This document shows, in pieces, positions 16,366 to 30,234 of a stretch of DNA of 64,000 nucleotides. The notes below the pieces were generated by a model. The model searched no databases and was not told the origin of the DNA. It was given only the letters and a program-made list of their open reading frames with translations. Made by a program: the position numbers and the translations under genes. Every line of letters begins with the position of its first letter. Position 1 is the stretch's first letter. The stretch comes from a virus, in IMG/VR virus record IMGVR_UViG_3300012931_000759, positions 186,001 to 250,000 of that record; one strand, 5' to 3'.

Positions 16366-17037
16366 ATGGCTCTCAGGATTCTTCAGCCGGGCATCCAGCC
16401 GCTCGGACAGTTCGATTTCGCAGACGGTTACCTGCTTAGCGTTAAGGGCGGCGAGGTTTGTACCCTTGTGGCTCTGTCGCGCACAAACACCGCTTCCGAA
16501 AAGGCGGCTGCGGACGCGCTCGATGGCTACACCAACTACTCTCAAAACATGCGCGCTGGCCTGACCCTTAACATCGCAGTCAACACGGCCCGCCCGCTGT
16601 GGCTGACTGATGACGGCACCGGCGCCTCTGGCATCATCCAGGGGTACGGCACGCTGTTCGGCCAGGTGATCGGCACCCCTGTCGGTCTTACGACCTCGGG
16701 AACCAACCTCGGTCCCCACACCGCCCTTGCCTCTGGCAAAGTGACCGCGTGGGACAAGCCGGGCCTCTACGCTGTGACGCTCGACGCTGTCGACACTGAC
16801 GCGACGAACGGCCTTCAGCCAAGCAACGTGGCCATGGTGCCGCAGAAGGCGATCTACCCGACGATCCTCGGTGTTCTGACCCCGACGGCCGGACGTTCGG
16901 TCGGCGCTGCTGGCCCCACGGTCGCCCGTTTCGTGGAGTTTGAATCCACCGCCCGCTCTCTCGTCCGCACGCCTGCCTCGCTCGTGGGCGCGACTCCGGT
17001 CTGGGAGCACGCCGTGATTTCGTACTTTGTCGAGTAG
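16366..17037 (+). CDS. Probable capsid decoration or head-surface protein
   Basis: 223 residues, start behind GAGGAGATGAACCA. It is the first gene of the capsid transcript and lies directly before the major capsid gene, where decoration or head-fibre proteins are common. The sequence is beta-rich, Ala/Thr/Gly-rich and has two DGY triplets. The N-terminus resembles that of the 8926-9618 product. No catalytic motif. Confidence 0.65.
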   Translation: MALRILQPGIQPLGQFDFADGYLLSVKGGEVCTLVALSRTNTASEKAAADALDGYTNYSQNMRAGLTLNIAVNTARPLWLTDDGTGASGIIQGYGTLFGQVIGTPVGLTTSGTNLGPHTALASGKVTAWDKPGLYAVTLDAVDTDATNGLQPSNVAMVPQKAIYPTILGVLTPTAGRSVGAAGPTVARFVEFESTARSLVRTPASLVGATPVWEHAVISYFVE

Positions 17038-17066
17038 TTGATCGTCACGAGTCGTGAAAGAACTGG

Positions 17067-17094
17067 TCCGATCCGGGGGTGACTCTGGATCGGA
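17067..17094 (+). promoter_or_regulatory. Intercistronic hairpin before the capsid gene
   Basis: TCCGATCC (17067-17074) pairs with GGATCGGA (17087-17094) across a 12-base loop. No T-run, so read-through is expected; a processing or stabilising element between decoration and capsid cistrons is plausible. Confidence 0.4.
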
Positions 17095-17146
17095 TCCCAA
17101 GTAAGAGAAAGGAGCGAAAGACCATTCCACAGGAGGACAAAGAGTT

Positions 17147-18172
17147 ATGTCTCTTTTTAACACCCATGGCGAGATGAACGCCAGCGGCGTCAAGGATGCC
17201 CTTGCCCAGATCGTGAAGTATGCCACGATCCTTGAGAACATGGAGCCCGCCAACACCGGGCTCGCCCAGCAGCCCTCGTTCAACGACGAGCAGCGCGACG
17301 AACTGATCAAGCGCGCCCTTCTGACCCAGGAAGGCAAGATTGCCCTCGGTCAGGCGATGGCCAACCCAATCCGGCGTAACCTCGACTACCAGGGAGTCGG
17401 CCGCCGGGTTCTGGTGATCGACCCGCTGCCCCAGGGCGCCCTGCCCGTGTACGACCGCGATATCGACGTCGCAGCCGTGGTCGTAGCCTCGAACGGCTCG
17501 GCTCCCGAGAGCCGCGTGTTCGGTGACCGCGTGACCGTGCCGGAGTTCGAGGTCGTCTCGAATCCGACCGTGCGCATTGCCGAAGTGCGTAGACGCCGTT
17601 TCAACGTGATTGACCGTGCCCAGCAGAAAGCCCGCCAAGAGATCCAGGCCCAGGAAGACGCGAACATTTTCGCAGCCCTGGACTACGCGGCCGACGCAAC
17701 CCTCGGCGGCGAAAACACTGCCCAGGACATCGCGGACGCTGGTCTGCTCAAGCGCGACTTGTCCGAGATCAAGGTCCAGGTGGACCGCTGGGACCTGGTC
17801 ACGACCAAGTTCCTTATGAACATCCTTGAGTTCAACGACATTCTGAACTGGGGTTCGGGCGGTGGTCAGGCTGCGGGCACTGGTGGCGAGGTGGACCCAG
17901 TGACGATGCGTGAAATCCTCCAGACCGGTCTTTACGCGCATATCTGGGGCGCCGACATCATCGTCTCCAAGATCGTGCCGCCAGGCACGGTGTTCGGGAC
18001 TGCGGATCCGGAGTTCGTTGGTGTCATGCCTATCAGGCAGGACATTGAGGTACTACCTGCTGACGAACCTAAGCAGCTAAAGCTCGGCTGGGTGGTCAAT
18101 GAAATCATCGGCATCGGCATCGTGAACCCCCGTGGTGTCGCCGTTGGTCGCAAATCAGTGGCCGTCGGCTAA
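17147..18172 (+). CDS. Major capsid protein (HK97-fold)
   Basis: 341 residues behind a strong ribosome site (ACAGGAGGACAAAGAGTT). The pattern fits HK97-type capsid proteins of myophages: a helical, Gln/Glu-rich N-terminal arm, RRVLVIDPLPQGALPVYD, a loop with FGDRVTVPEFEV, a long helix rich in Ala/Gln/Glu (RAQQKARQEIQAQEDANIFA), and a C-terminal sheet ending near PNPRGVAVGR-type residues (IVNPRGVAVGRKS). The fold assignment is by pattern, not by search. Strong promoter, leader hairpin, good ribosome site and a UUCG terminator all point to very high expression. Any processing at the N-terminal arm by the upstream protease is unproven. Confidence 0.85.
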   Translation: MSLFNTHGEMNASGVKDALAQIVKYATILENMEPANTGLAQQPSFNDEQRDELIKRALLTQEGKIALGQAMANPIRRNLDYQGVGRRVLVIDPLPQGALPVYDRDIDVAAVVVASNGSAPESRVFGDRVTVPEFEVVSNPTVRIAEVRRRRFNVIDRAQQKARQEIQAQEDANIFAALDYAADATLGGENTAQDIADAGLLKRDLSEIKVQVDRWDLVTTKFLMNILEFNDILNWGSGGGQAAGTGGEVDPVTMREILQTGLYAHIWGADIIVSKIVPPGTVFGTADPEFVGVMPIRQDIEVLPADEPKQLKLGWVVNEIIGIGIVNPRGVAVGRKSVAVG

Positions 18173-18203
18173 CGCCAACCGGCAACTAACTGAATCGTGA
18201 ATG

Positions 18204-18238
18204 AAAAAATCGGGCTGCTTCGGCAGCCCGATTTTTTT
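18204..18238 (+). terminator. UUCG rho-independent terminator after the capsid gene
   Basis: CGGGCTGC-TTCG-GCAGCCCG (18211-18230) flanked by AAAAAAT and ATTTTTTT, giving an extended stem and T-run. Confidence 0.9.
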
Positions 18239-18255
18239 GTGCCTGTTCTTTTCTC

Positions 18256-18284
18256 TTGACAAGGCTTAGCAAGATAAATAAACT
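18256..18284 (+). promoter_or_regulatory. Sigma70-like promoter of the nuclease/methyltransferase cassette
   Basis: TTGACA at 18256-18261, a 17-base spacer and TAAACT at 18279-18284. This is a host-type promoter unlike the phage late promoters, placed between the capsid terminator and the cassette, so the cassette may be expressed early. Confidence 0.5.
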
Positions 18285-18324
18285 GAAGATAGAACAACTT
18301 TTCAAGTGATAGTGTCAGGAGAAA

Positions 18325-19911
18325 ATGAGAACGAGGGAAAAAATCGATGACGCCATTCTGGCGGAGGACATCAGGAGCCTCTCGGAAAAGATCGGCAGAG
18401 TGCCGAGGCAGGAAGATTACAAGAAGGACGGAACCTTCGGCTTGAACACTCTGCTGCTCCGGAAGTCTTGGAACCAATGGCTGACGGAGATTTTTGGTCA
18501 GATCAATGAGGTTCGCAAAACCAAGCGAGAGAGGGCAACTGCTCTGGAGGTTTTGCTGGATATCAAATGCGTGTGTGACAAGTTGGGCAAACCTCCAACG
18601 CAGGCGGAGTACAAAGTGGCAGGCAAACACCCTTTGGGAACCATACTGCGGCACCGGAAATGGAACGATTGGTTGAAATTGGCCACTGGTTCCGTGAACT
18701 ACAACCGCACGGAGGACAGCAAAACCAGGAGGATAGGCGACCAGGATCTTGCCGATGATGTGCGGCGGGTGGCGACGGAACTGGGGCACGCCCCGACTCG
18801 GAGCGAATACAACGAGCATGGTCGCCATTCCTCCGACACCATTGTGGTTAGGATGCCTTGGATGGAATTCATCCAGAAGGTTTGTGGGCTTGAGCCATCA
18901 AAAATTGCGTCCGTCAACAGGTCGAAGGCGACCAACGAGGAACTGCTGGCCCAGTTGAAAAGATTGGCGACGACTTTAGATCGAACGCCCCTGAAGGAAG
19001 ATCTGGGTGGTCAAAACGGATTCTGCTACACCGCATATGTTCGTGCCTTTGGCACTTTCGGCAATGCCCTTGTTGCCGCTGGATTGATCAATCCCCTGAA
19101 CCGCTATTGTGTTCCTCGCGAGGAACTGGTTGTCGAACTGAAGCGGGTGTATGGTCTGCTCGGCCACACGCCGTCCGAAACGGAGTTCCTGGAAAACAGC
19201 CCCATACGCAGCAATGGTTCGATATATTCCGAGTTCGGCTCCTGGACAAAGGCGTTCCTTGCTGCAGGTATTCCAGTTATAAAGGCCAGAAATATCTCCG
19301 TGGACGACATCAAGATCGCCTTGCAGAAATGGCATACTGCCAACAATGGCGACGATTCCTGCCTCGAATACTGGAAAATAAGAAAAGCAAAGAAAAACAA
19401 ACAGTTTCCATATTCGCCAAACTCCGTCAGCGCGAAGTTCCATCCACTATCCTGGGAAGAGATTATGCGCGAATGCGGATTCCCAAACTATGTAACCAAG
19501 GATCGTTATGTTACAGGGCGTAAACGCGGCGACCACACCGGAGCCGACGGCAACGAGTACCTATCCTCCCTGGAGAAGGAGATTGGCGATTTCCTGTTCG
19601 AATTGAAGGGCTCGGGAAATATCCTGGACTACGAATATGAGGCCAAAATATGCCCCGACAAGAACTGGACATGCGACTTCAAGGTGACGATGCGCGATGG
19701 CAGGGCTGTCTGGCTGGAGGCCGACGGCCTCCGCAACAACCGCAACCGACCCTACTCCTCGGGCAACAACGAAAAGATCGCATTCTATGGCAACAACGGA
19801 ATGGATTGTCGCATAGTGTCGTATTCCTCTCCCAATATCCGATGGGCGGTGGCCGACAGCCTAGCCTTGCCATTGCCGGTCCCCACCAATCCGCGAAAGG
19901 AAAACTTATGA
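18325..19911 (+). CDS. Homing-type nuclease with an array of HNH_repeat-like DNA-binding units and PD-(D/E)xK domain
   Basis: 528 residues behind GTCAGGAGAAA. About six units of some 50-60 residues follow the pattern ELK-(R)-x-LGxxPxxxEF ... FGSWxxAxxxAGL, for example LKRVYGLLGHTPSETEF and FGSWTKAFLAAGI, matching the homing-endonuclease-associated repeat; the last is degenerate. The C-terminal about 110 residues contain a conserved Glu, CDFKVTMRDG and VWLEADGL, a PD-(D/E)xK core. An array of this length should read a long target. Overlaps the next gene by ATGA. First gene of a four-gene cassette. Confidence 0.75.
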   Translation: MRTREKIDDAILAEDIRSLSEKIGRVPRQEDYKKDGTFGLNTLLLRKSWNQWLTEIFGQINEVRKTKRERATALEVLLDIKCVCDKLGKPPTQAEYKVAGKHPLGTILRHRKWNDWLKLATGSVNYNRTEDSKTRRIGDQDLADDVRRVATELGHAPTRSEYNEHGRHSSDTIVVRMPWMEFIQKVCGLEPSKIASVNRSKATNEELLAQLKRLATTLDRTPLKEDLGGQNGFCYTAYVRAFGTFGNALVAAGLINPLNRYCVPREELVVELKRVYGLLGHTPSETEFLENSPIRSNGSIYSEFGSWTKAFLAAGIPVIKARNISVDDIKIALQKWHTANNGDDSCLEYWKIRKAKKNKQFPYSPNSVSAKFHPLSWEEIMRECGFPNYVTKDRYVTGRKRGDHTGADGNEYLSSLEKEIGDFLFELKGSGNILDYEYEAKICPDKNWTCDFKVTMRDGRAVWLEADGLRNNRNRPYSSGNNEKIAFYGNNGMDCRIVSYSSPNIRWAVADSLALPLPVPTNPRKENL

Positions 19912-20699
19912 AACGGTTCGACCGCGAGACATTGGCGCAGAGGCTGAGATCCTTTTCGGAAAAGTTGGGTTCATCGCATATCTCGAAATCGATGGTGGAC
20001 TCGGCACTCGACATGCCGGCATCGGCCACTTTCGCCAGGTGCTTCGGGTCATGGGGCAACGCCTTGGAATTCTCCGGTCTCCAGAGGGGGACAATCACCG
20101 GTAGGCCCCAGGATCCTCCAATCGAATTGACTCCGGAAGCCATGGATATCATCGAGGGGGAACTTCTCGGCGACGGGAGCCTGGATTCCAGCCCGACCGT
20201 GAACGCCTGTTTTGCGCATTCGACCGCAAACTTCGCGTATTCCAAATTCCTGTATGAATCTCTTGGGAAATGCCATGTTCCGGTCAGGAAGCCGGAGTTG
20301 CTGAAGGCGCGCGGAGGGAAGCCACAGGCAAGGGTGCGCAGCCCGTCAAATGCGGCATTCGGCAGACTTAGGCGGCTGTGGTATCCAGACGGGACCAAGA
20401 TCCTGCCGCAGGGATTTTTTCTCAACAGGACAAGATGCCTGTTCTGGTACCTGGGCGATGGCTATGTGGAAACCGGAACAATCAAGTTCTCGACCTGCGG
20501 CTTCACAAGGTGCGAAGTGGAGCGTTTGGCGGAATTGCTGACCGGTTCCGGCTTCAAGTCCGCCAGGAACAACCGCAGCGGGGGCTACCATGTCATCCGC
20601 ATGTCCAAGATGGCTGCCCCCGGGTTCCTGGAATGGATAGGGCCATGCCCAGCGGCGGGCTACGAGCACAAATGGAACCTGAAAGGGAAAATCCATTGA
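19908..20699 (+). CDS. LAGLIDADG homing endonuclease
   Basis: 263 residues, start set by AAAGGAAAACTT and the ATGA overlap. An N-terminal unit ending CFGSWGNALEFSGL is a single copy of the repeat arrayed in the upstream nuclease. Two LAGLIDADG-type motifs follow: IIEGELLGDGSLDSS (about 83) and FWYLGDGYVETGTIKF (about 178), so the protein should act as a monomer with two active-site acids. The shared repeat suggests the two nucleases were assembled from the same parts. Confidence 0.8.
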   Translation: MKRFDRETLAQRLRSFSEKLGSSHISKSMVDSALDMPASATFARCFGSWGNALEFSGLQRGTITGRPQDPPIELTPEAMDIIEGELLGDGSLDSSPTVNACFAHSTANFAYSKFLYESLGKCHVPVRKPELLKARGGKPQARVRSPSNAAFGRLRRLWYPDGTKILPQGFFLNRTRCLFWYLGDGYVETGTIKFSTCGFTRCEVERLAELLTGSGFKSARNNRSGGYHVIRMSKMAAPGFLEWIGPCPAAGYEHKWNLKGKIH

Positions 20700-21433
20700 T
20701 CACCGACTACATCAACAAACACACAGTCATGGGAATGCTTTCGGCGAACTATGTCCCGTTCGGAGATTGGAGCGGCTTCTACAGGAACAAGACCCGGACG
20801 AAAGTCACGGTTTTCGATCCCGGCTTCGATGGCGATTTCAAGGAGACGGCGTTCCACTATGTTCCCGACAGGATGGGAAAAGGATACAGCTCCACTCTAC
20901 TAGTGTCCCGCTTCGACTCCGCCTTCTTTGCCCTGGCGGGGGCAGAACACAAGGAGATCCGCGAAACCAGGAACAAATGGGACAGGCTGGTGTCCGTCCG
21001 CGAGGAGCCTTCGTCCGTGGGGGAGGTTGTTGCCCTTGTGGACAAGTGGGACATCCTGTCCGGCAGCAAGTATGGATTCAACCGGCACAGTGGATACGAC
21101 AGGAACTTTTTCCGGCGATATTGGGAAACGGAACGGAGCAACCTATACTCGTTGTTCTTCTACCACGGCGATGCGCTTGTCGGCTACAGTGTGGTGTCCA
21201 AACTGCAGGATGACAATTGCTTCAGGTATGTAATCAGGAAAATGGACATAGGTGCGGGCAGGAATATATGCCTGTACATCGACTACAAGACCTTCGAAAG
21301 CATCTGGAGGGATCGCAAGGGGTGTTTTTACGTAAACTGGGGCGCAAGTTCGGGCAAGGTTTTGAAATACAAGGAGAAATTCCCAACCTTCAAGGAGTGT
21401 AGGGTCTGGTTCCACAAAAAGGGGGGCAAATGA
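20696..21433 (+). CDS. Possible GNAT-fold acyltransferase partner of the methyltransferase
   Basis: 245 residues from TTG 20696, which overlaps the previous stop and is preceded by AAAGGG; ATG 20730 is the alternative. The centre and end read like a GNAT fold: SLFFYHGDALVGYSVVSK, then RYVIRKMDIG, then NICLYIDYKTFE, and FYVNWGASSGKVLKYKEKFP, where the last resembles the closing strand of acyltransferases. The family is not certain. It overlaps the methyltransferase start by ATGA, so the two are translationally coupled. One idea is a base-modifying pair in the spirit of phage Mu Mom, which is a GNAT relative, but that is inference. Confidence 0.55.
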   Translation: MITDYINKHTVMGMLSANYVPFGDWSGFYRNKTRTKVTVFDPGFDGDFKETAFHYVPDRMGKGYSSTLLVSRFDSAFFALAGAEHKEIRETRNKWDRLVSVREEPSSVGEVVALVDKWDILSGSKYGFNRHSGYDRNFFRRYWETERSNLYSLFFYHGDALVGYSVVSKLQDDNCFRYVIRKMDIGAGRNICLYIDYKTFESIWRDRKGCFYVNWGASSGKVLKYKEKFPTFKECRVWFHKKGGK

Positions 21434-22566
21434 TCAGCACGACGCCATACGACAGCTCTACACACGCCAATCCTTGGCTTATGGAGACGAACAATTCCTA
21501 TGCCATCCTTGGTCCAGAAGGTGTTCCATTGACAGCTTCCTACATCTGGTCGAAAAGCGGGCAGGACAGGGAGGATCTTGTCAATTGGGTTTTCCGGCAT
21601 TACAGGGACACAGGCTTTGTCAAAAGCGGGGAATCCGGAAATCTCATGGATGACTTTGCTAAACTGAGGATGAAGGATCCGAATGATGTCCTCAACGCCG
21701 ACGGGGAGATCAAGAACAGTTCCCCGCTTTGTAACAATGTCTGTAGACATTTCGTGTGGGAGAAGTATCATTCTGCCAAGGGCGGGAGCAAAAGCAGGTC
21801 CGTCATCGATGTGTTCAACGATGACCAGACATTCCTCAATGTTCTGAAGAACAGGATGGGCTATTGTGTGTCGATGGAGGACGGGGAGGAGCGACCATAT
21901 GTGTTCACCATCACTGATTCGATGGTCCTACAGGGCATCCGGTCCACCGGGTATGGGTACAACGTCAGCCTGTTCAAGCCGCTAGTCGGCAAGTATCTGT
22001 ACGGGAAATACGCCAAAAACAAGGTTTTCGACTACTCGGCTGGCTGGGGCGCAAGATGCCTAGCCGCGATGAGCCTTGGGATAGAGTACTATGGCGTGGA
22101 TCCATTGACCTCCAAGGAAATCAATGGGATGATAGCCTTCTTTGGTGGAAGGGGGTTTGTGGTCGATGGCTGCTCGGAAGACCGCAATGCATATGCCGGA
22201 ATACCTAAGGTAGATTGCGTGATGTCGAGTCCGCCATATTTCGACCTGGAGAGCTACAGCAATGACGCAAGACAAAGCGTGAACAAGTTCGGGAGATACG
22301 AGGATTGGGTGAGCTCGTATTGGGGCGGAACTGTTGTGAATTGCCTTGGCATATTGGAGAAAGGCGGATATTTCATCATGGTTGTCAAAGATTATGTGGA
22401 GAAGCGCCATCTTTCCGAGGACATGGGGGCTGTTTGTAGGAAGGGTGGGCTAGTGCTAGAGGAGACGATCCATTACAGGACATCGACCAGCCACCTGTCG
22501 GGCAAAAGGATGACAAGCAGGACATCCAAAAATGATGAGACAGTGTTCGTATTCTATAGAAAATGA
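21430..22566 (+). CDS. DNA methyltransferase (amino-methyltransferase class, SPPY type)
   Basis: 378 residues. The S-adenosylmethionine motif I is VFDYSAGWGARCLAA at about 199-213, and motif IV is SSPPYFDLE at about 266-274; the order I then IV fits the gamma-like class, and SPPY rather than DPPY is typical of N4-cytosine enzymes, although N6-adenine cannot be excluded. The 190 residues before motif I are unusual and unrecognised. The final strand FVFYRK is standard. Last gene of the nuclease cassette; no restriction partner other than the cassette nucleases is visible. Confidence 0.7.
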   Translation: MISTTPYDSSTHANPWLMETNNSYAILGPEGVPLTASYIWSKSGQDREDLVNWVFRHYRDTGFVKSGESGNLMDDFAKLRMKDPNDVLNADGEIKNSSPLCNNVCRHFVWEKYHSAKGGSKSRSVIDVFNDDQTFLNVLKNRMGYCVSMEDGEERPYVFTITDSMVLQGIRSTGYGYNVSLFKPLVGKYLYGKYAKNKVFDYSAGWGARCLAAMSLGIEYYGVDPLTSKEINGMIAFFGGRGFVVDGCSEDRNAYAGIPKVDCVMSSPPYFDLESYSNDARQSVNKFGRYEDWVSSYWGGTVVNCLGILEKGGYFIMVVKDYVEKRHLSEDMGAVCRKGGLVLEETIHYRTSTSHLSGKRMTSRTSKNDETVFVFYRK

Positions 22567-22724
22567 TTGTGGGTCTTTTAAAAATCCTTCCAAGGGCAAC
22601 GGAAAATGGTGGCCTTGGTGCCATTATTGGATTGCGACCGTCACTTTCTCCAATGGATCAGCTCCTGCCCCGTCGATAATCGCGGGCAAGTAGAGTCCTG
22701 CCTCTGATTTTCCGCTTTATCCAA
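22567..22724. other. Non-coding gap after the methyltransferase
   Basis: No frame with a ribosome site on either strand. The stretch before the small-transcript promoter shows no hairpin or family resemblance that I can support; the short translated pieces look like random sequence or a dead gene. Confidence 0.4.
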
Positions 22725-22743
22725 ACTATCAATAATCCATAAT
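22725..22743 (+). promoter_or_regulatory. Phage late-type promoter of a small transcript unit
   Basis: ACTATCAATA at 22725-22734; the +17 triplet is AAT rather than CAT, so the initiator is weaker than in the others. A terminator follows only about 110 bases later. Confidence 0.6.
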
Positions 22744-22876
22744 TTTTGTCGGACACCAGCCGATGCGCCAATATGGCCGCAAGGGCGTGGCGGTCGGCCA
22801 ATCCAGACTGACCGGCAAGATGGGAAACTGAGCTAGACACTAGGCGGACCGCTCGTGAGGGCGGTCCGCTTTTTTG
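22742..22876 (+). ncRNA. Candidate small RNA or mini-mRNA between promoter and terminator
   Basis: Predicted start near 22742, ending in the terminator at 22844-22876, about 135 nucleotides. It contains one 22-codon frame (22763-22831, MRQYGRKGVAVGQSRLTGKM then GN) with no clear ribosome site. The closed promoter-to-terminator layout is what supports a discrete transcript; whether it works as RNA or peptide is open. Confidence 0.4.
22844..22876 (+). terminator. Rho-independent terminator
   Basis: GCGGACCGC (22844-22852) pairs with GCGGTCCGC (22861-22869), loop of eight, followed by TTTTTT. Confidence 0.85.
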
Positions 22877-22922
22877 ATGATCCTGTCTAGCAGCGTCGCT
22901 GATAGCGGAAAGATGTCGCGAA

Positions 22923-22941
22923 TCTATCAATTTTCCAGCAT
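22923..22941 (+). promoter_or_regulatory. Phage late-type promoter
   Basis: TCTATCAATT at 22923-22932, six bases, CAT at 22939-22941. Opens the unit that begins with the gene at 22971. Confidence 0.75.
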
Positions 22942-22970
22942 TGAAAAGGAACCTTCCGAGGGAGGCATAC

Positions 22971-23246
22971 ATGAGTCGCTACAACTATTTCGGTACCATC
23001 CTGATCGACGGTTACGCGTTCCCGGAGATTCCGCAGGCCGTTTTCGATTTCAATTCTCAAGGGTTCAAATTCCTGAACCGCGGCGCGTATCCCATCGAGT
23101 ATAGTTTTGATGGAACTCATCTTCATGGTGATCTGAATCCAGCCGATGCCTCCAAGGAAATGTCGTTCGATGGGCGTTGTGAGTGTAAGGTGTTTTTCCG
23201 AGCCAAAGATGGTTACGGCATTTGTAGGGTGGAAGCCTGGAGATAG
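22971..23246 (+). CDS. Small beta-rich protein, probable virion component
   Basis: 91 residues. Start chosen at ATG 22971 behind GGGAGGCATAC; the earlier in-frame ATG lies on the predicted transcript start. Two DGY triplets (IDGYA, KDGYG), as in the virion proteins of this window. First gene of a promoter unit and followed three bases later by a GIY-YIG gene. No family recognised. Confidence 0.65.
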   Translation: MSRYNYFGTILIDGYAFPEIPQAVFDFNSQGFKFLNRGAYPIEYSFDGTHLHGDLNPADASKEMSFDGRCECKVFFRAKDGYGICRVEAWR

Positions 23247-23249
23247 ACG

Positions 23250-23969
23250 ATGGCCAGTGGAGTCTACGCCATAACGAACACTGTGAGCCTGAAAAGGTAC
23301 ATAGGTAGTTCGGACAATATAGATCAGCGATGGCGCCAACACAGACGAAAGTTGCGGAAAAATGGGCATTCTAAACCCCATCTTCAGGCTGCCTGGAACA
23401 AATACGGCGAACGGACCTTCAGGTTTGAAGTTTTGTGCTTGACTGATCAACCTTGCCAAGTAGAGCAGGCATTTTTGACAGTCTGGAAACCCGAATACAA
23501 TATTTCGGTGGGCGCCGATGCGTGGGCGAACCTTTACTGTGGAGCATCGGGCCAAATTGGGGCATCTCGCAGGGGATGTGTCCATTCCATAGAAGCCAAA
23601 GTAAAGATGTCGGCTTCTCACAAAGGAAAAAACTTGTCTGCCGAAACGCGTGCCAAGATTTCTTCGGCAAACAAAGGAAAAGTTCGTTCAGAAGAACAGC
23701 GTGCGAACATAAGCAAATCCAAAAAAGGTAAGCCTTCACTTTTCAAGGGCCAAACCCTTTTTGACGAGACGCGTGCCAAAATTTCGGCAGACAAGATAGG
23801 CAAGCCTGGTCATCCGCACACGGAAGAACATCGCGCCTCCATGTACAGGGACAACAATTCATCCAAACGTGCCGATGTCCACGCCAAGATCAACACAGCA
23901 CAGAAGGCTGCTTGGGCTCGTCGTAAAGCGGCACAAGGGAATGCGAATACTCTGGAGACGAAAACATGA
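23250..23969 (+). CDS. GIY-YIG homing endonuclease
   Basis: 239 residues. GVYAITN...KRYIGSS gives the GIY-YIG pair in the first 20 residues, followed by the catalytic-region RWRQHRRKL and EYNISVGAD. From residue about 120 there are several NUMOD3-like DNA-binding units (SAETRAKISSANKGK, SEEQRANISKSKKGK, FDETRAKISADKIGK). Overlaps the next start by ATGA. The combination is the standard layout of free-standing phage GIY-YIG enzymes such as the SegA family. Confidence 0.9.
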   Translation: MASGVYAITNTVSLKRYIGSSDNIDQRWRQHRRKLRKNGHSKPHLQAAWNKYGERTFRFEVLCLTDQPCQVEQAFLTVWKPEYNISVGADAWANLYCGASGQIGASRRGCVHSIEAKVKMSASHKGKNLSAETRAKISSANKGKVRSEEQRANISKSKKGKPSLFKGQTLFDETRAKISADKIGKPGHPHTEEHRASMYRDNNSSKRADVHAKINTAQKAAWARRKAAQGNANTLETKT

Positions 23970-24274
23970 TCCGTCGTGCCGACGGCTTGACCGTCTATTC
24001 CGGTTCGCATGTCGGCTCGCGCGGTTCGCTGGCTTCTATACGGCACACTGGCCCTGAGGACTTCTCGGAGGGCGTTCCCGAGGAGGAACGGGAGTGGGAG
24101 GGCGGTGTCCGGGCGGCCATGCTTACCAGAGAGGCCTCGTTCGGTGCGCGGTGGCACGGTGATTGGGAATCGTGGGACGAGCCCGATGGTCAGGAAATTG
24201 CCCTGACAGCCAGGCTTTGGGGGACAATATACAGGCGTCCAGAGCCGGTGGAGCCACCATTCGGAAGGAGATGA
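23966..24274 (+). CDS. Small protein, unknown
   Basis: 102 residues, coupled to the endonuclease gene by ATGA. Contains a Glu-rich centre (PEEEREWEGG) and W-rich ARWHGDWESWDEPDG. No family. Lies in a run of five tiny genes. Confidence 0.6.
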   Translation: MIRRADGLTVYSGSHVGSRGSLASIRHTGPEDFSEGVPEEEREWEGGVRAAMLTREASFGARWHGDWESWDEPDGQEIALTARLWGTIYRRPEPVEPPFGRR

Positions 24275-24277
24275 AAG

Positions 24278-24499
24278 ATGAAGATCCTGGACACCAGGAA
24301 AGTGAAAGAGCAGCGCAAGATCGAAGCCAAGTCCGAGAATGAGCTACGCGAATTCAAGGAATGGCTTAACAGTGCCACGCCCCTCGATGCCGAGGACATC
24401 AAGAACCTCGGGAACCTGTGGAATGGCCATTCTACCTACAATCTGGATGAGATCAAGGCAATGGCGGACTCCCTCCGCAAACAGACAGGCATCGCCTAG
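24278..24499 (+). CDS. Small helical protein, unknown
   Basis: 73 residues, ribosome site AAGGAGATGAAAG. Opens with MKILDT, almost the same as the next gene's MKILNT, though the rest differs. Two predicted helices (SENELREFKEWLNSA, DEIKAMADSLRKQ). Confidence 0.6.
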   Translation: MKILDTRKVKEQRKIEAKSENELREFKEWLNSATPLDAEDIKNLGNLWNGHSTYNLDEIKAMADSLRKQTGIA

Positions 24500-24509
24500 G
24501 AAGAGACAG

Positions 24510-24728
24510 ATGAAGATCCTCAACACAAAACACGGGGCGGCAACCATTCGACCGCCCCTCCGGAAAGACATCCGGGAACTCGAGGCCACGACCGGCTGGA
24601 GACTCGTTCCCGACAACATGCTCATGTCCGAAATCATGTTTACCGCCATGCTCGACCTGGAGTGCGAGAATGACATGGATTTCTTTGCCTGCGTGGATGG
24701 ACTGTACACCAAGGAAGGACAGGAATGA
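24510..24728 (+). CDS. Small acidic protein, unknown
   Basis: 72 residues from ATG 24510 behind AGGAAGAGACAG; the in-frame start upstream is inside the previous gene. Begins MKILNT. Acidic C-terminal half (DLECENDMDFFACVD). Overlaps the next start by ATGA. Confidence 0.6.
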   Translation: MKILNTKHGAATIRPPLRKDIRELEATTGWRLVPDNMLMSEIMFTAMLDLECENDMDFFACVDGLYTKEGQE

Positions 24729-25051
24729 GAAAAGGAAGAGCCACCCTGGAAGATCCCCTCACCGAAGAATACGTCCGCTACCGTCTCATGGAATACGCTA
24801 AGCTCATCGGAGCCCATGAGGACCTCAAGCAGGTCTTCGCGAAATGGGACACACTCATCCCGCTGGCGCCGCCCGATGAGCGTGCGCAGATGGGGCACAT
24901 GGCAATTATGGAGGTCGAGCGCCTCCTGGATATCTATTCCGCCCAAGGCGACGGCCTCACTATCAATGGAAAGGTTGTCATACCAACCGCAAAGAAGGAA
25001 CCAGAGGCGACGCTGTACGACGTGCGCCCGGACAAGAAGGAAAACGTATGA
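24725..25051 (+). CDS. Small protein, unknown
   Basis: 108 residues, ATGA overlaps on both sides. Helical first half (YVRYRLMEYAKLIGAHEDLK) and a short beta tail. No family recognised. Confidence 0.6.
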   Translation: MRKGRATLEDPLTEEYVRYRLMEYAKLIGAHEDLKQVFAKWDTLIPLAPPDERAQMGHMAIMEVERLLDIYSAQGDGLTINGKVVIPTAKKEPEATLYDVRPDKKENV

Positions 25052-25350
25052 CTAAGTACGAGATCATCAACAACAGGTTCAACAATATCAGGTTTCTACA
25101 GCTCTTCTCCGAGCGCGAGAGCGCATGGAGACTGTATATGGCTGACCAGCGGCGTCCGGTGATCGACTGCCAACCCAACGGTAAATGGCGTTTCGGCGAT
25201 ATGATCGGGACGGTGCCCAAAGGGCACGACTGCGTCATCGAGGGCTTCGTGGTGCGTAAGGGCAGGACGGTGCGCCGCGGCAAAGTGACCCATGTGCCGA
25301 ACGGCGGCGGGGATGTGAACTACATCCTGCGCGGAAACGACGTGGGGTAA
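25048..25350 (+). CDS. Small beta-rich protein, unknown
   Basis: 100 residues, coupled to the previous gene by ATGA. Basic, beta-rich second half (CVIEGFVVRKGRTVRRGKVT). Last of the tiny-gene run before an HNH gene. Confidence 0.55.
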   Translation: MTKYEIINNRFNNIRFLQLFSERESAWRLYMADQRRPVIDCQPNGKWRFGDMIGTVPKGHDCVIEGFVVRKGRTVRRGKVTHVPNGGGDVNYILRGNDVG

Positions 25351-25353
25351 GGT

Positions 25354-25956
25354 ATGGAAACAGAGATTTGCGTCCAGCACGATAATGAAGAAACAATTGA
25401 AGAAACTGAGAAAACCACCGGACAATCTTGGCGCGAATATATGAGAACATATATGAGGCAGTATCGTCGAGACAATCCAGAACGGATGGCCGCAGCGCGA
25501 CGCAAACATTATCTTCGACACCAAGAGGATACAAAAGAGGCCGCTCGCACATATTACGAACAAAACAAGGACAAAATTAAGAAGCGAGTGAACGCCTATA
25601 CAGAGAAGCGGATGAAAACTGATCATGCGTTTTGTGTCAAACGCAGACTGCGCATGCGCCTTAGAACAGCACTTAAGGCTTCTTTGGAGGGACGTAAAAC
25701 TAAGAGATCCTCTGAATATGGTATAAATTACGAGAAGATTTTTCAGCATCTCGGCCCATGCCCCGGTGCTTTGTCGGACTATCACATCGATCATATCAGA
25801 CCGCTGTGTTTATTCGATTTTAATGATCCAGAGCAAATACGGGCAGCTTTTGCACCCGAAAATCATCAATGGCTTCGCAAAGAGGAAAATTTGGCGAAGC
25901 ATTGTAAAACTGCCGTTGCTGTCAATCGTGGCACAGCAGAAGGAGAAGAAGGATGA
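25354..25956 (+). CDS. HNH homing endonuclease
   Basis: 200 residues. A long Arg/Lys helical N-terminus leads to the nuclease core YHIDHIRPLCLFDF, then AFAPENHQWLRKEENLAKH, the H-N-H order of phage enzymes in which the second part supplies the Asn and last residues. AT-rich relative to neighbours. Its stop overlaps the start of the intron-split cold-shock gene by ATGA, so it lies right next to the intron's homing site. Confidence 0.85.
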   Translation: METEICVQHDNEETIEETEKTTGQSWREYMRTYMRQYRRDNPERMAAARRKHYLRHQEDTKEAARTYYEQNKDKIKKRVNAYTEKRMKTDHAFCVKRRLRMRLRTALKASLEGRKTKRSSEYGINYEKIFQHLGPCPGALSDYHIDHIRPLCLFDFNDPEQIRAAFAPENHQWLRKEENLAKHCKTAVAVNRGTAEGEEG

Positions 25957-27098
25957 CTGATACAGGCAAGAGACTGACTGGCAAAGTAGTGTGGTCAAGT
26001 TAGGGCCCTTCGGCGAAGCGATTCGTCGAAAGCATCGGGTGAATTGCTGGAAACCTTAGCGCGTCATGGCGGTGGTAATCAGCAGCCAAGCCTGCGAAGC
26101 CGGTAGGAATAGCAGGAAGGTTCAGAGACCAACAAAATTCTGGAAAAAAACTCACCTTTGAGGTGTAGTGATGGATAGGATGGCAAGAGGTATTTTGGTT
26201 GGCATGGCTTTGGGCGACGGGCATATTCGTATACGACGGGATCTTCGTTATCCGAATGCGCTTCCGTCTGCCACCTTATGTGTCAAACATTGTGCTCGCC
26301 AGACAGAATATGCCGAGTACAAAGCCAATTTGCTTCATCGTATCCTTGGAGGGGCGAAGCCAAAAGTCTCGCCTTTTGACAACAGCGGGTTTCCTGGGGT
26401 TCTGTTTGCGAAAACAAACAAATATTTCAGGATATTGGGAAAGCGATTGTACCGAAATGGTCACAAGTTCATCTCTCGTCAGATTTTGGATTATCTGACG
26501 GACGAAGGGCTTGCAATTTGGTGGATGGATGATGGAAGTCTCTATATGAAAAAGAGGAATGGCATCATCCATGCGCGAGAGGGCATCTTAAGTACTTATT
26601 GTTCAAAACCGGAATACGAAACAGTTGTTGACTGGTTCAAAGATAAATATAGTATTATAGTAGCCCCCGTTGTACACAAAAGCAGTTTCAGGATTCGCAT
26701 TAATACCGCAAACCTGAAACTGCTTGTCCCGATTATCGCTCCGTATGTTGTTCCATGTTTGTCGTACAAAGTAGATATGAAGTACGACCCAGAACTTTGA
26801 CACGAGCGCCCGACATCCCTTGTGGATGAAGATATGGTCCGACACTCCGGGGAAATCCGGAGATCCGGTCTAAACAGCCGGAATAACAGATGTCAACGAC
26901 AAAAAGGGTTTTGGCTTCATCTCCCGCGATGATGGGGGGGGTGACCTCTTTGTTCACTTTAGTAATATAAATGCTGAAGGATTCAAGTCACTTACAGCCG
27001 AGCAGCTGGTGTCATTCGCCATCGGGAAGAACAACCGCGGCCCGCAGGCGATCGACGTCGAGGTGATTGGGGAGCCGGAGTCCGACTTGGACGAGTAG
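25953..27098 (+). CDS. Cold-shock domain protein, split by a group I intron (exons 25953-25995 and 26893-27098)
   Basis: Exon 1 encodes [14 protein letters not shown] plus the first base of a codon; exon 2 starts TC and continues [20 protein letters not shown]. Joining T25995 to T26893 gives TGG-TTC-AAC, restoring the conserved W-F-N of CspA proteins. The spliced product is 82 residues with RNP1 KGFGFI and RNP2 LFVHF, and a short acidic tail. Unspliced RNA stops at 26001 after 16 codons. Expected role: RNA/single-strand binding and unwinding, acting in the cytoplasm on phage or host transcripts. Ribosome site GAAGGAGAAGG. The exon assignment is by reading, with very good fit. Confidence 0.85.
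26153..26165 (+). promoter_or_regulatory. Hairpin hiding the ribosome site of the intron endonuclease
   Basis: CACCT-TTG-AGGTG; the 3' arm is the Shine-Dalgarno for ATG 26171. T4 intron endonuclease genes are held back by similar sequestering structures, so translation may be restricted to certain transcripts. Confidence 0.5.
26171..26800 (+). CDS. LAGLIDADG homing endonuclease inside the intron
   Basis: 209 residues (GTG 26168 is an alternative start). Two LAGLIDADG motifs: [13 protein letters not shown] near residue 10 and [12 protein letters not shown] near residue 118, so a monomeric two-motif enzyme. Low GC. Most likely cleaves intron-less copies of the cold-shock gene at the exon junction, making the intron mobile. 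Members of this family sometimes also help splicing (maturase), which cannot be judged here. Confidence 0.85.
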   Translation: MDRMARGILVGMALGDGHIRIRRDLRYPNALPSATLCVKHCARQTEYAEYKANLLHRILGGAKPKVSPFDNSGFPGVLFAKTNKYFRILGKRLYRNGHKFISRQILDYLTDEGLAIWWMDDGSLYMKKRNGIIHAREGILSTYCSKPEYETVVDWFKDKYSIIVAPVVHKSSFRIRINTANLKLLVPIIAPYVVPCLSYKVDMKYDPEL

Positions 27099-27102
27099 GC
27101 CG

Positions 27103-27636
27103 ATGGCCAGGGACAGGAAAAAGTGGCTGCGGCCCCCTAACAGGGGGCCCAGGTATCTCCTGCGTAATGTTCATCCCAAAAGGATGGACGTGATGTTGGG
27201 GGATCTGGGATATAGGATTCCGTACGGGCAGACGCGCGACATGCTGTCGCCGTCCGCGCGGTTGGATCCGTCCGCAGTCGAGCGTTCCCGTCTGAACGGG
27301 TCGATCGCCCAAAGGCTCCGCCAAGGTGTCCTGATGGAGGTGGTAGCGGTTATACCGATTCCCCCTCCGCAGGTTTCCGTGGCGGAGCCTTCCGCCATAT
27401 CCTTTCCACAGCGCACCAAATCACTTCTGGTTCCTGACGAGGGTGATCTGACGGAGAGCGTCCAGTCGGTGGTTGCCGACGAGGACACCGAACTTCTCAA
27501 GCAGATGGAGGAGGACGAGAAGGCCTTGGCTGAAGGTGAAGCTGCTGGTCTTCCTGTGACCGTTGATCCGGTTAAGGCTACGGCCGTCCTGGACAAGGTG
27601 TCCGGGGGCTGCTGCGGCGGAAAGGGAAGGAAATAG
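27103..27636 (+). CDS. Unknown protein, possible head/neck component
   Basis: 177 residues from ATG 27103, four bases after the cold-shock stop; the longer frame would overlap it. Basic N-terminus (RKKWLRPPNRGPRYLL), an acidic segment (KQMEEDEKALAEGEA) and a Cys-Gly tail (GGCCGGKGRK). No family. Same transcript as the cold-shock gene. Confidence 0.6.
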   Translation: MARDRKKWLRPPNRGPRYLLRNVHPKRMDVMLGDLGYRIPYGQTRDMLSPSARLDPSAVERSRLNGSIAQRLRQGVLMEVVAVIPIPPPQVSVAEPSAISFPQRTKSLLVPDEGDLTESVQSVVADEDTELLKQMEEDEKALAEGEAAGLPVTVDPVKATAVLDKVSGGCCGGKGRK

Positions 27637-27678
27637 GCTGGTCTCTCTTATGATTAAGGCAGCGGCAAAGGCGGCACA

Positions 27679-27999
27679 ATGTTGAAAAAAACCGCCTGCG
27701 AGATTTGCTCTATGTCGGATCTGCGCATCATACATCGCCATCATATTATTCCACGTCCAGATCCGCGTTGCCATAATGGCTCCAACAACTTAGCTTGTTT
27801 ATGTCCCAACTGTCATTCTCTTGTCCATGCGGGTGAGATTGTGATTCTAGGTGTTTATTCTTCGACCAACGGCAGATGTCTTGTTTGGCACAACAAGAAT
27901 GAACAACCGCCACTGGCCAAAGAATGTTGGTTAGTGCGAGATAATCCGCTTGTCGTCACCCTGGGCGGTGGCGAGGATGACTTGCCGGACAAGGAATAA
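27679..27999 (+). CDS. Small HNH endonuclease
   Basis: 106 residues. CEIC...HRHHIIPRP, then LACLCPNCHSLVHAGE: two CxxC zinc pairs enclosing an HH-N-H core. No DNA-binding extension is present, so it is short for a homing enzyme but comparable to other small phage HNH proteins. Start one codon phase after AAGGCGGCACA. AT-rich. Confidence 0.8.
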   Translation: MLKKTACEICSMSDLRIIHRHHIIPRPDPRCHNGSNNLACLCPNCHSLVHAGEIVILGVYSSTNGRCLVWHNKNEQPPLAKECWLVRDNPLVVTLGGGEDDLPDKE

Positions 28000-28000
28000 T

Positions 28001-28717
28001 ATGGTCGACACGAAGCGCCAGATCATAATTCACAGTGATTACGCAGAAGGTGACACCGAGGGTCCGCACCGTGATGCACGGGCGGGCGATGTCCTGGTGT
28101 CGCCCGACAAGGTACGCGTATACGACGGCGTGCCGATGGACGGATACCTGGAATTGTCGCACGACGGCATCCAGGCGAAAATCGAGAGTTCGCTCGGGAC
28201 TGTGAGTGTTGACGGCGTGACGGTTGCCGCACATATCTCCAGGCACCTTGCCAGCGGCGCGGATTCGACCTATGTCGTGTCTGGAAGGGAGCCACTGCCC
28301 AGTGATGACGGATATGCCGTCGGCATGCGTTGGCTCGACACGGTTGGTGGCCAGGAGTACGTATGCTTCTCGAACGCGCCAGCGACAGCTGTTTGGCACC
28401 TTGATCTTACCGAGGAGCGACATAGGATCCTCAGGCAACTAATCCACTTTATCGACAACGGGCCAGCCAGCGGCTTCGCCTCCGGGGCGTACCGCGAGAT
28501 GACGGGCACGGTTTTTCCCACAGCTATCGTGTGGTACGACCAAGTAGGTGCCGGAAAGAAGAAAATCGTCTCGAAGGAGATCACCTGGAACGGAGCGTTC
28601 CCGGCAACGATTACATGGAAGGTGTACGACACTTCAGAGGTTCTGCTGGCTACCGTGGTTGACATTCTGACATACAGCGGACCATTTGAGATTTCGAGGA
28701 CGAGGAGTATCGCATGA
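28001..28717 (+). CDS. Virion protein, unknown (fibre/baseplate region)
   Basis: 238 residues from ATG 28001 immediately after the HNH stop. Beta-rich with MDGYLELSHDGIQAKIESSL and DDGYAVGMRWLD, a coiled fibre-like character, and a C-terminal beta domain. Overlaps the next start by ATGA. Probable fibre or tail-accessory protein by context. Confidence 0.6.
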   Translation: MVDTKRQIIIHSDYAEGDTEGPHRDARAGDVLVSPDKVRVYDGVPMDGYLELSHDGIQAKIESSLGTVSVDGVTVAAHISRHLASGADSTYVVSGREPLPSDDGYAVGMRWLDTVGGQEYVCFSNAPATAVWHLDLTEERHRILRQLIHFIDNGPASGFASGAYREMTGTVFPTAIVWYDQVGAGKKKIVSKEITWNGAFPATITWKVYDTSEVLLATVVDILTYSGPFEISRTRSIA

Positions 28718-30234
28718 GCATCGACAGCCCAGCCTCCATCCTGTACGATGCCGCCGGCAACCCTGTCGCGGTCGTGCTCGACGGCTCAATCCACCGCCTG
28801 GCCGTCGACGCCAAGATAACCGGCGGGGAAGACCCATCCATGGTCGTGCTCGACGGCGACTATGGGCAGAAGGTCAAGCCGACCGGCGCAAGGGGCTTCG
28901 GAGGATGGATTCCGGAGCCGACGGCCTATCCGACGGGTCCGGACGGCTACAAAACAGGCACGCTCCAGATCGATCCCGACGGCTCCCTGCTGATCCGCGG
29001 GCCGGTTCTCACCGACGAAAGATCGTTCCGCTGTGATTTCCCCGGCACATCCTTACACACTGTCCTTACAGGAACCCTTACTTTTACGAATGGCAACTCA
29101 ACGGTGACGGGAAATGGAACGACATTCTCGTCCGAACTCAGCGCCGAGGACTACATAAGGCTTTTGGCCGATGGGTACCAGTACTATACCTTAGTGAAGA
29201 ATGTTATTTCCGACACCGAGTTGCTGCTGGTTGATCCCTATGTCGGCAGTTCCGGCAGCGGCGTCGGCCAGAAGACGTTGTTTACTATAACGGGCACCCA
29301 GTTCTTCACAGTCGTGAATTCAAAAGTGACCATCCCGTCCGGTACAACCGCGAGCCAGTTCAACGGGATCTACAGGATGGCCGATTATTCGCCCATTATG
29401 GCGCATGCTGTTATAAACATCAGCACCAGGCAGGCCAACCAGTACGGCAGTTTCGGGCTTATCGACACAATAAACACCTTGGTACCCTCGTCCGTGTCGG
29501 CTGTGGTGTTTGATGGAACGGATGCCACCAAGGTCAAATTCAATACATCGTGCGACGGGGTGACGGAGCAAACCGATGTTATACTGCCGCTCGGATACAC
29601 GACCGCCAACGAGTTGGATTACCAGATTTCTGTGTATCCGGAGGAGGCAGTCCTATCTATCGAAGGAGTTTCCGTAGCACGTCACAAAAGGCACATACCG
29701 AATCCATATGTGGTCCTGAACGTCTTTGCTGGCTGGTACAACCTGAATCCGGGGCCTGTGGTATCCAGCAATATGCTCATCGATCTCATATTCGTCTCGA
29801 ACCACAACCGCCTACAGGTCTCGCAGACATTTCTCGGCGATACTCTTCCGGTCAGGATTGTTGAGGACGTACACAGCATCGTGGCAAAGCGAACAACCAC
29901 GGCCGTCACGGAAGTCTCGCTCATTGAGTACACTGTTCCGGTAAACAAGACGCTGTGGGTTGTCGGATATTGCGTTAGTGCTGGCATCTCAACAATACGC
30001 GGCTATCCGGTTAAAATCGGTAAAGGATGGCCGCTACCGGATCCAACGAATCCCGGTGTGGTTGATGGTGGGCTTATCAGGTCGTTTCTGCTTGAGCAGA
30101 AAACGAACGTCTCTGAGAGTTTCTCTGTTCCCCTATATCTTGCGGCTGGCGGGGAGACCGTCTATATCTCGATCACGCCAGACGGCGTGACCAGCACGAT
30201 TTGGCGGGCGCAACTAGACTTCATATTGAGGTAG
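28714..30234 (+). CDS. Fibre-type virion protein
   Basis: 506 residues, beta-rich throughout. The N-terminus ILYDAAGNPVAVVLDGSIHR matches VLYDASGNPVGVVLDTTLYR in the centre of the next protein, so both carry the same module. Many Thr/Ser/Gly/Val repeats and no enzyme motif. Likely receptor-contact or fibre protein; exact place in the particle unknown. Confidence 0.65.
   Translation: MSIDSPASILYDAAGNPVAVVLDGSIHRLAVDAKITGGEDPSMVVLDGDYGQKVKPTGARGFGGWIPEPTAYPTGPDGYKTGTLQIDPDGSLLIRGPVLTDERSFRCDFPGTSLHTVLTGTLTFTNGNSTVTGNGTTFSSELSAEDYIRLLADGYQYYTLVKNVISDTELLLVDPYVGSSGSGVGQKTLFTITGTQFFTVVNSKVTIPSGTTASQFNGIYRMADYSPIMAHAVINISTRQANQYGSFGLIDTINTLVPSSVSAVVFDGTDATKVKFNTSCDGVTEQTDVILPLGYTTANELDYQISVYPEEAVLSIEGVSVARHKRHIPNPYVVLNVFAGWYNLNPGPVVSSNMLIDLIFVSNHNRLQVSQTFLGDTLPVRIVEDVHSIVAKRTTTAVTEVSLIEYTVPVNKTLWVVGYCVSAGISTIRGYPVKIGKGWPLPDPTNPGVVDGGLIRSFLLEQKTNVSESFSVPLYLAAGGETVYISITPDGVTSTIWRAQLDFILR

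Follow-up and report, generated by a model that had tools for sequence, protein, structure and literature searches.

A group I intron encoding a LAGLIDADG endonuclease in the cold-shock gene of a jumbo phage

The interrupted csp gene and its neighbours

The window analysed here is a stretch of 64,000 nucleotides (positions 186,001 to 250,000) from IMG/VR virus record IMGVR_UViG_3300012931_000759, a 340,392-bp contig of a jumbo phage. A cold-shock protein gene (csp) begins at position 25953 of the window with the ribosome-binding site AAGGAG close upstream, and its frame reaches a stop two codons past the first exon to give a peptide of 16 amino acids if it is read unspliced; the rest of the cold-shock protein resumes approximately 900 bases downstream, from N-D-K-K-G-F. 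The features of the locus are as follows:

25354-25956, plus strand: ORF whose C-terminus is HNH-like and whose end shares 4 nt (ATGA) with the start of csp
25953-25995, plus strand: csp exon 1, 14 codons and the first base of F, with a read-through stop after 16 codons
25996-26892, plus strand: group I intron of 897 nt in phase 1 after codon 14, delimited by the RF00028 match, restoration of the cold-shock protein and the 3' tail
26168-26800, plus strand: LAGLIDADG_2 homing endonuclease ORF, start GTG 26168 or ATG 26171, 210 amino acids
26893-27098, plus strand: csp exon 2, with the remaining RNP1, RNP2 and the stop; matches the cold-shock domain (CSD)

The joining of T25995 to T26893, from which the original prediction derived a product of 82 residues with both RNA-binding motifs intact, holds up: the spliced ORF encodes 82 amino acids, of which residues 9-72 match Pfam CSD (PF00313) with 92 bits, and it contains both RNP1 (K-G-F-G-F-I) and RNP2 (D-L-F-V-H-F), with the invariant cold-shock residues retained across the two exons. 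This gene holds the only CSD match in the whole 340-kb record. The predicted junction of the ligated exons is TGGT^TCAACGAC. The choice of splice sites was evaluated by scoring all 306 combinations of a T that could end exon 1 with a G that could end the intron against the consensus of intron-free cold-shock proteins, for which the maximum score is 87. The pair T25995/G26892 was the best of the 306 by a wide margin, with a score of 80 and exact restoration of the cold-shock protein, and the best alternative (25992/26889), which replaces the invariant W-F with Y-V, was rejected with a score of 64. The U that precedes the 5' splice site and the G that ends the intron, as had been predicted from the group I rules, are found at this best pair of positions. 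The tails GAUAACAACAUG and GAUAACACAUUG of related introns at the loci L011 and L003, respectively, match the intron's 3' tail, AAUAACAGAUG, in form, so that the 3' site is supported independently of the protein encoded by the window itself.

The intact W-F-N-D codons, GGTTCAACGAC, are found in the joined exons of the window (25993-25995 plus 26893-26900) and at the loci L020, L021, L030 and L033. This 11-mer, within which the window intron is inserted, is identical to the conserved R segment (the 5' strand of P7) of several group I introns examined, which is probably a coincidence of conserved codons.

The ORF that overlaps the csp start codon has a weak match to the endonuclease VII family phrog_1035 (E 9e-4), no match in a Pfam search, and no similarity to the HNH ORF of the csp intron at L011; it is possibly a free-standing homing endonuclease that flanks csp outside the intron. 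Other endonuclease-like ORFs cluster around the csp intron (window positions 18325-28000):

19650-20699: LAGLIDADG ORF
23250-23969: GIY-YIG ORF
27679-27999: HNH ORF

Further introns were sought in the endonuclease-rich region 16900-29000 and in the whole 340-kb record, and none was found beyond that in csp.

Ribozyme core and intron-encoded endonuclease

A sensitive covariance search matched the group I intron model RF00028 at 25986-26862, over model positions 1-253, with an E-value of 5.8e-10 and a score of 44.9 bits, which is below the curated gathering cut-off of 50 bits. The default Rfam run on the window reported no match at all because of this low bit score and the 633-nt ORF that lies within the ribozyme core. 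With the core identified and the cold-shock protein restored, the interruption of csp by a group I intron at 25953-27098 is confirmed with the coordinates originally proposed. The core and splice sites suffice to place the intron in group I, so that a group II reading is not called for. Three other matches were rejected as chance: one of exon 2 to the cspA thermoregulator, at E 0.06, and two to microRNAs, at E 0.016 and 3.6. The elements of the intron are as follows:

25993-26007, plus strand: best candidate for P1, GGU^C (25993-25996) with GGCC (26004-26007)
26009-26030, plus strand: P2 hairpin of 9 bp with a GCGA tetraloop, from the predicted fold
26035-26040, plus strand: P3 5' strand UCGGGU, which pairs with GCCCGA at 26808-26813 and covaries in relatives
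26045-26087, plus strand: P4-P5 and segment Q (AATCAGCAGCC, 26077-26087)
26119-26129, plus strand: segment R (GGTTCAGAGAC), the 5' strand of P7
26808-26839, plus strand: P3 3' strand, P8 (26814-26828) and segment S (AAGATATGGTC, 26829-26839)
26845-26862, plus strand: P9, CUCCGGG-GAAA-UCCGGAG with a GAAA tetraloop (26845-26881 together with the next hairpin)
26865-26881, plus strand: P9.2-like hairpin, 3' of P9

The core segments GAATTGCTGGAAA, Q, R and S resemble those of textbook introns. Pairing is found in P3, P4, P5, P8 and P9, with covariation in P3, P5 and P9 when related phage introns are compared; among helices picked by eye, P3 is kept with different bases in eight related introns, and RNAalifold on eight intron cores finds compensatory changes at 18 of the 30 predicted pairs. 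Core pieces had been noticed on both sides of the LAGLIDADG gene, and the 5' side of P7 does lie upstream of it and the 3' strand of P3 downstream, a position of the ORF that, judged from sequence, would fit subgroup IA. The candidate P1 places a U25995.G26005 pair at the splice site, and is short and weak, with three exon pairs plus one and an adjoining mismatch of U25992 with C26008. The search for a P10 with at least three uninterrupted pairs starting at the junction gave none in the window intron.

The intron ORF is intact and matches Pfam PF03161 with 88.6 bits, which bears out the placement of a LAGLIDADG gene within the intron; it also matches phrog_11023. Its GDG and MDDG acidic motifs are invariant in nine aligned endonuclease sequences. 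The closest solved structures are I-SceI-like (E about 1e-6, over residues 84-203 only); I-SceI, a mitochondrial group I intron endonuclease, is similar in sequence to this ORF but differs in its intron and host. A small hairpin, CACCUUUGAGGUG, covers the likely ribosome-binding site of the endonuclease ORF, and a similar hairpin is present in L003. In phage T4, the ribosome-binding site of the I-TevI gene is likewise covered by a hairpin.

Related introns, a second csp intron and an empty site

The P3-P9 architecture with Q, R and S segments in the window is that of the introns of T4 (td, nrdB, nrdD), SPO1 (DNA polymerase), Twort (nrdE) and Bastillevirinae, and these phage introns and the window intron alike have a U before the 5' site, a G at the 3' end, an endonuclease ORF in a peripheral loop, and an insertion site in conserved codons. 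The host gene differs: known phage introns usually interrupt genes of DNA metabolism, terminase, head or lysin proteins, whereas that of the window interrupts csp. The introns of T4 carry GIY-YIG or HNH endonucleases, whereas the ORF of the window intron is of the LAGLIDADG_2 type. The nearest DNA matches to the core among annotated phages are in Shewanella phage 1/4 and Vibrio phage 1.187.O (73-78% over 74-98 nt); they are confined to the core, and each is flanked by two annotated fragments of a single gene, that of the ribonucleotide reductase (RnR) alpha subunit in the former and of terminase in the latter, so that the host genes differ from that of the window. No annotated phage record matches across the intron end together with csp exon 2.

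Related introns are found in IMG/VR, where relatives of the endonuclease adjoin group I cores at L003, L004, L006, L007, L008 and L010, and exons of the major head protein lie beside L003, L008, L010 and L016; a search of genome contigs gave two LAGLIDADG relatives and no csp intron. The introns of L003, L008, L010 and L011 share with the window a homologous endonuclease (52% identical in L003), a similar core and, in most, the 3' tail AUAACA...UG. The host gene of L003, L008 and L010 is that of the major head protein, and among the four only L011 shares the csp host. Unlike the window intron, those of L003 and L011 have an extra HNH ORF in the P1-P2 region. At L003 (3572-5660), two consecutive group I introns are present in or beside the major head protein gene; both cores are preceded by an HNH ORF, and the second intron has a LAGLIDADG ORF in addition. 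An intron with two LAGLIDADG ORFs splits phrog_12143, a phage gene of unknown function, at L007 (3981-6358).

The second csp intron, in IMGVR_UViG_3300033064_003457 (L011), is a related group I intron whose endonuclease is 39% identical to that of the window:

1646-3159 of L011: split csp gene with an HNH ORF (1704-2249) and a LAGLIDADG ORF (2274-2903)

Exon 1 of L011 ends in WFNNKKG (GGGT^TAACTT) and exon 2 starts with YGFIQK (CATG^TATGGATTT), so the insertion KKG^YGF is in phase 0 after codon 17 of its gene, as compared to phase 1 after codon 14 in the window; on the aligned csp gene, it is 17 nt downstream of the window site. Its P1 is a clear helix of 9 bp, AAAGGGU^UA with UAGCUCUUU, with U.G at the cut, located directly before P3 and enclosing the HNH ORF in its loop. 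Alleles of csp that have no intron also exist, including that of L053, a syntenic relative of L011 in which homologous neighbour genes occur in the same order and csp is uninterrupted (AAAAAGGGTTATGGATTC). The existence of such alleles and the covariance match, the two computational checks suggested with the original prediction, both bear it out. Intact csp genes were found in more than 100 of 145 loci examined, and split genes only in the window phage and L011; the survey matched peptide patterns and took the best 80 matches rather than being exhaustive, and interrupted csp genes could therefore be missed. The suggestion that csp is an unusual intron host stands in that no report of a cold-shock gene with a group I intron was found in the literature, of which few subscription papers were covered, but the window is not the sole case. 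The intron is of a well-known kind, and csp seems not to have been described previously as its host gene.

Probable splicing and mobility, and possible regulation

The locus is very probably the site of a mobile group I intron that is spliced out of csp and spread by its LAGLIDADG endonuclease. The ribozyme would splice itself from the csp mRNA at U25995/G26892 and join the exons, so that Csp is still made; during co-infection, the endonuclease would cut intron-free csp at the conserved W-F-N-x-x-K-G codons, and repair after cutting would copy the intron into that allele. The ribozyme core, the intact ORF, the restored frame, the empty sites and the related second csp intron can all be read from sequence, from which it is inferred that the intron splices in vivo, that its endonuclease cuts csp, and that the element is mobile. 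That these elements were assembled by chance, with unrelated csp exons and a core brought together by an assembly artefact or with a free-standing endonuclease breaking csp, has a negligible probability: the contig is metagenome-derived and the default Rfam threshold returns no match, but the core is full-length with an E-value of 5.8e-10, the splice sites are precise, and the independent case of L011 together with its empty-site relative L053 refutes such an origin in practice.

Splicing of the window intron may be slow or need help because P1 is short and there is no clean P10, and its efficiency is uncertain. An intron so decayed that it splices poorly, leaving Csp mostly not made and the gene effectively knocked out, would be consistent with the weak P1, the lack of a clean P10, and an unspliced product of only 16 amino acids; this is unlikely, since the core helices are intact and covarying, the endonuclease ORF is intact, and the exons still encode a well-conserved cold-shock protein, as a gene that died long ago would hardly do. 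Splicing that is tuned, for example by temperature or by Csp, and thereby sets the amount of Csp, is more doubtful still. Cold-shock proteins are RNA chaperones, and RNA chaperones help the T4 td intron to fold (PMC3017892), which together with the location of both csp introns in the region of the first RNA-binding motif speaks for such tuning. A feedback loop in which Csp aids the folding or splicing of its own precursor, or in which cold slows splicing, would result in temperature-dependent or dose-dependent control, and is given equally little credence. Two sites 17 nt apart in two phages are a better fit to repeated invasion of a good, conserved target than to one conserved switch; other members of the intron family reside in head protein genes, no conserved sensor element was seen, and intact csp loci are the rule. 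The placement of the intron in an RNA-binding motif, which is the evidence for the originally suggested splicing switch, is already explained by the preference of homing endonucleases for conserved codons.

On the preferred reading of a mobile intron, cold-shock genes are a further target of phage group I introns, which have entered the RNP1-coding region at two nearby positions in two separate phages; split phage csp genes such as these escape default Rfam thresholds. The csp sites support the view that homing endonucleases favour the codons of functionally essential residues. Since the product of the split gene belongs to the RNA chaperones, the locus offers a simple test of whether a host protein acts on the splicing of its own intron.
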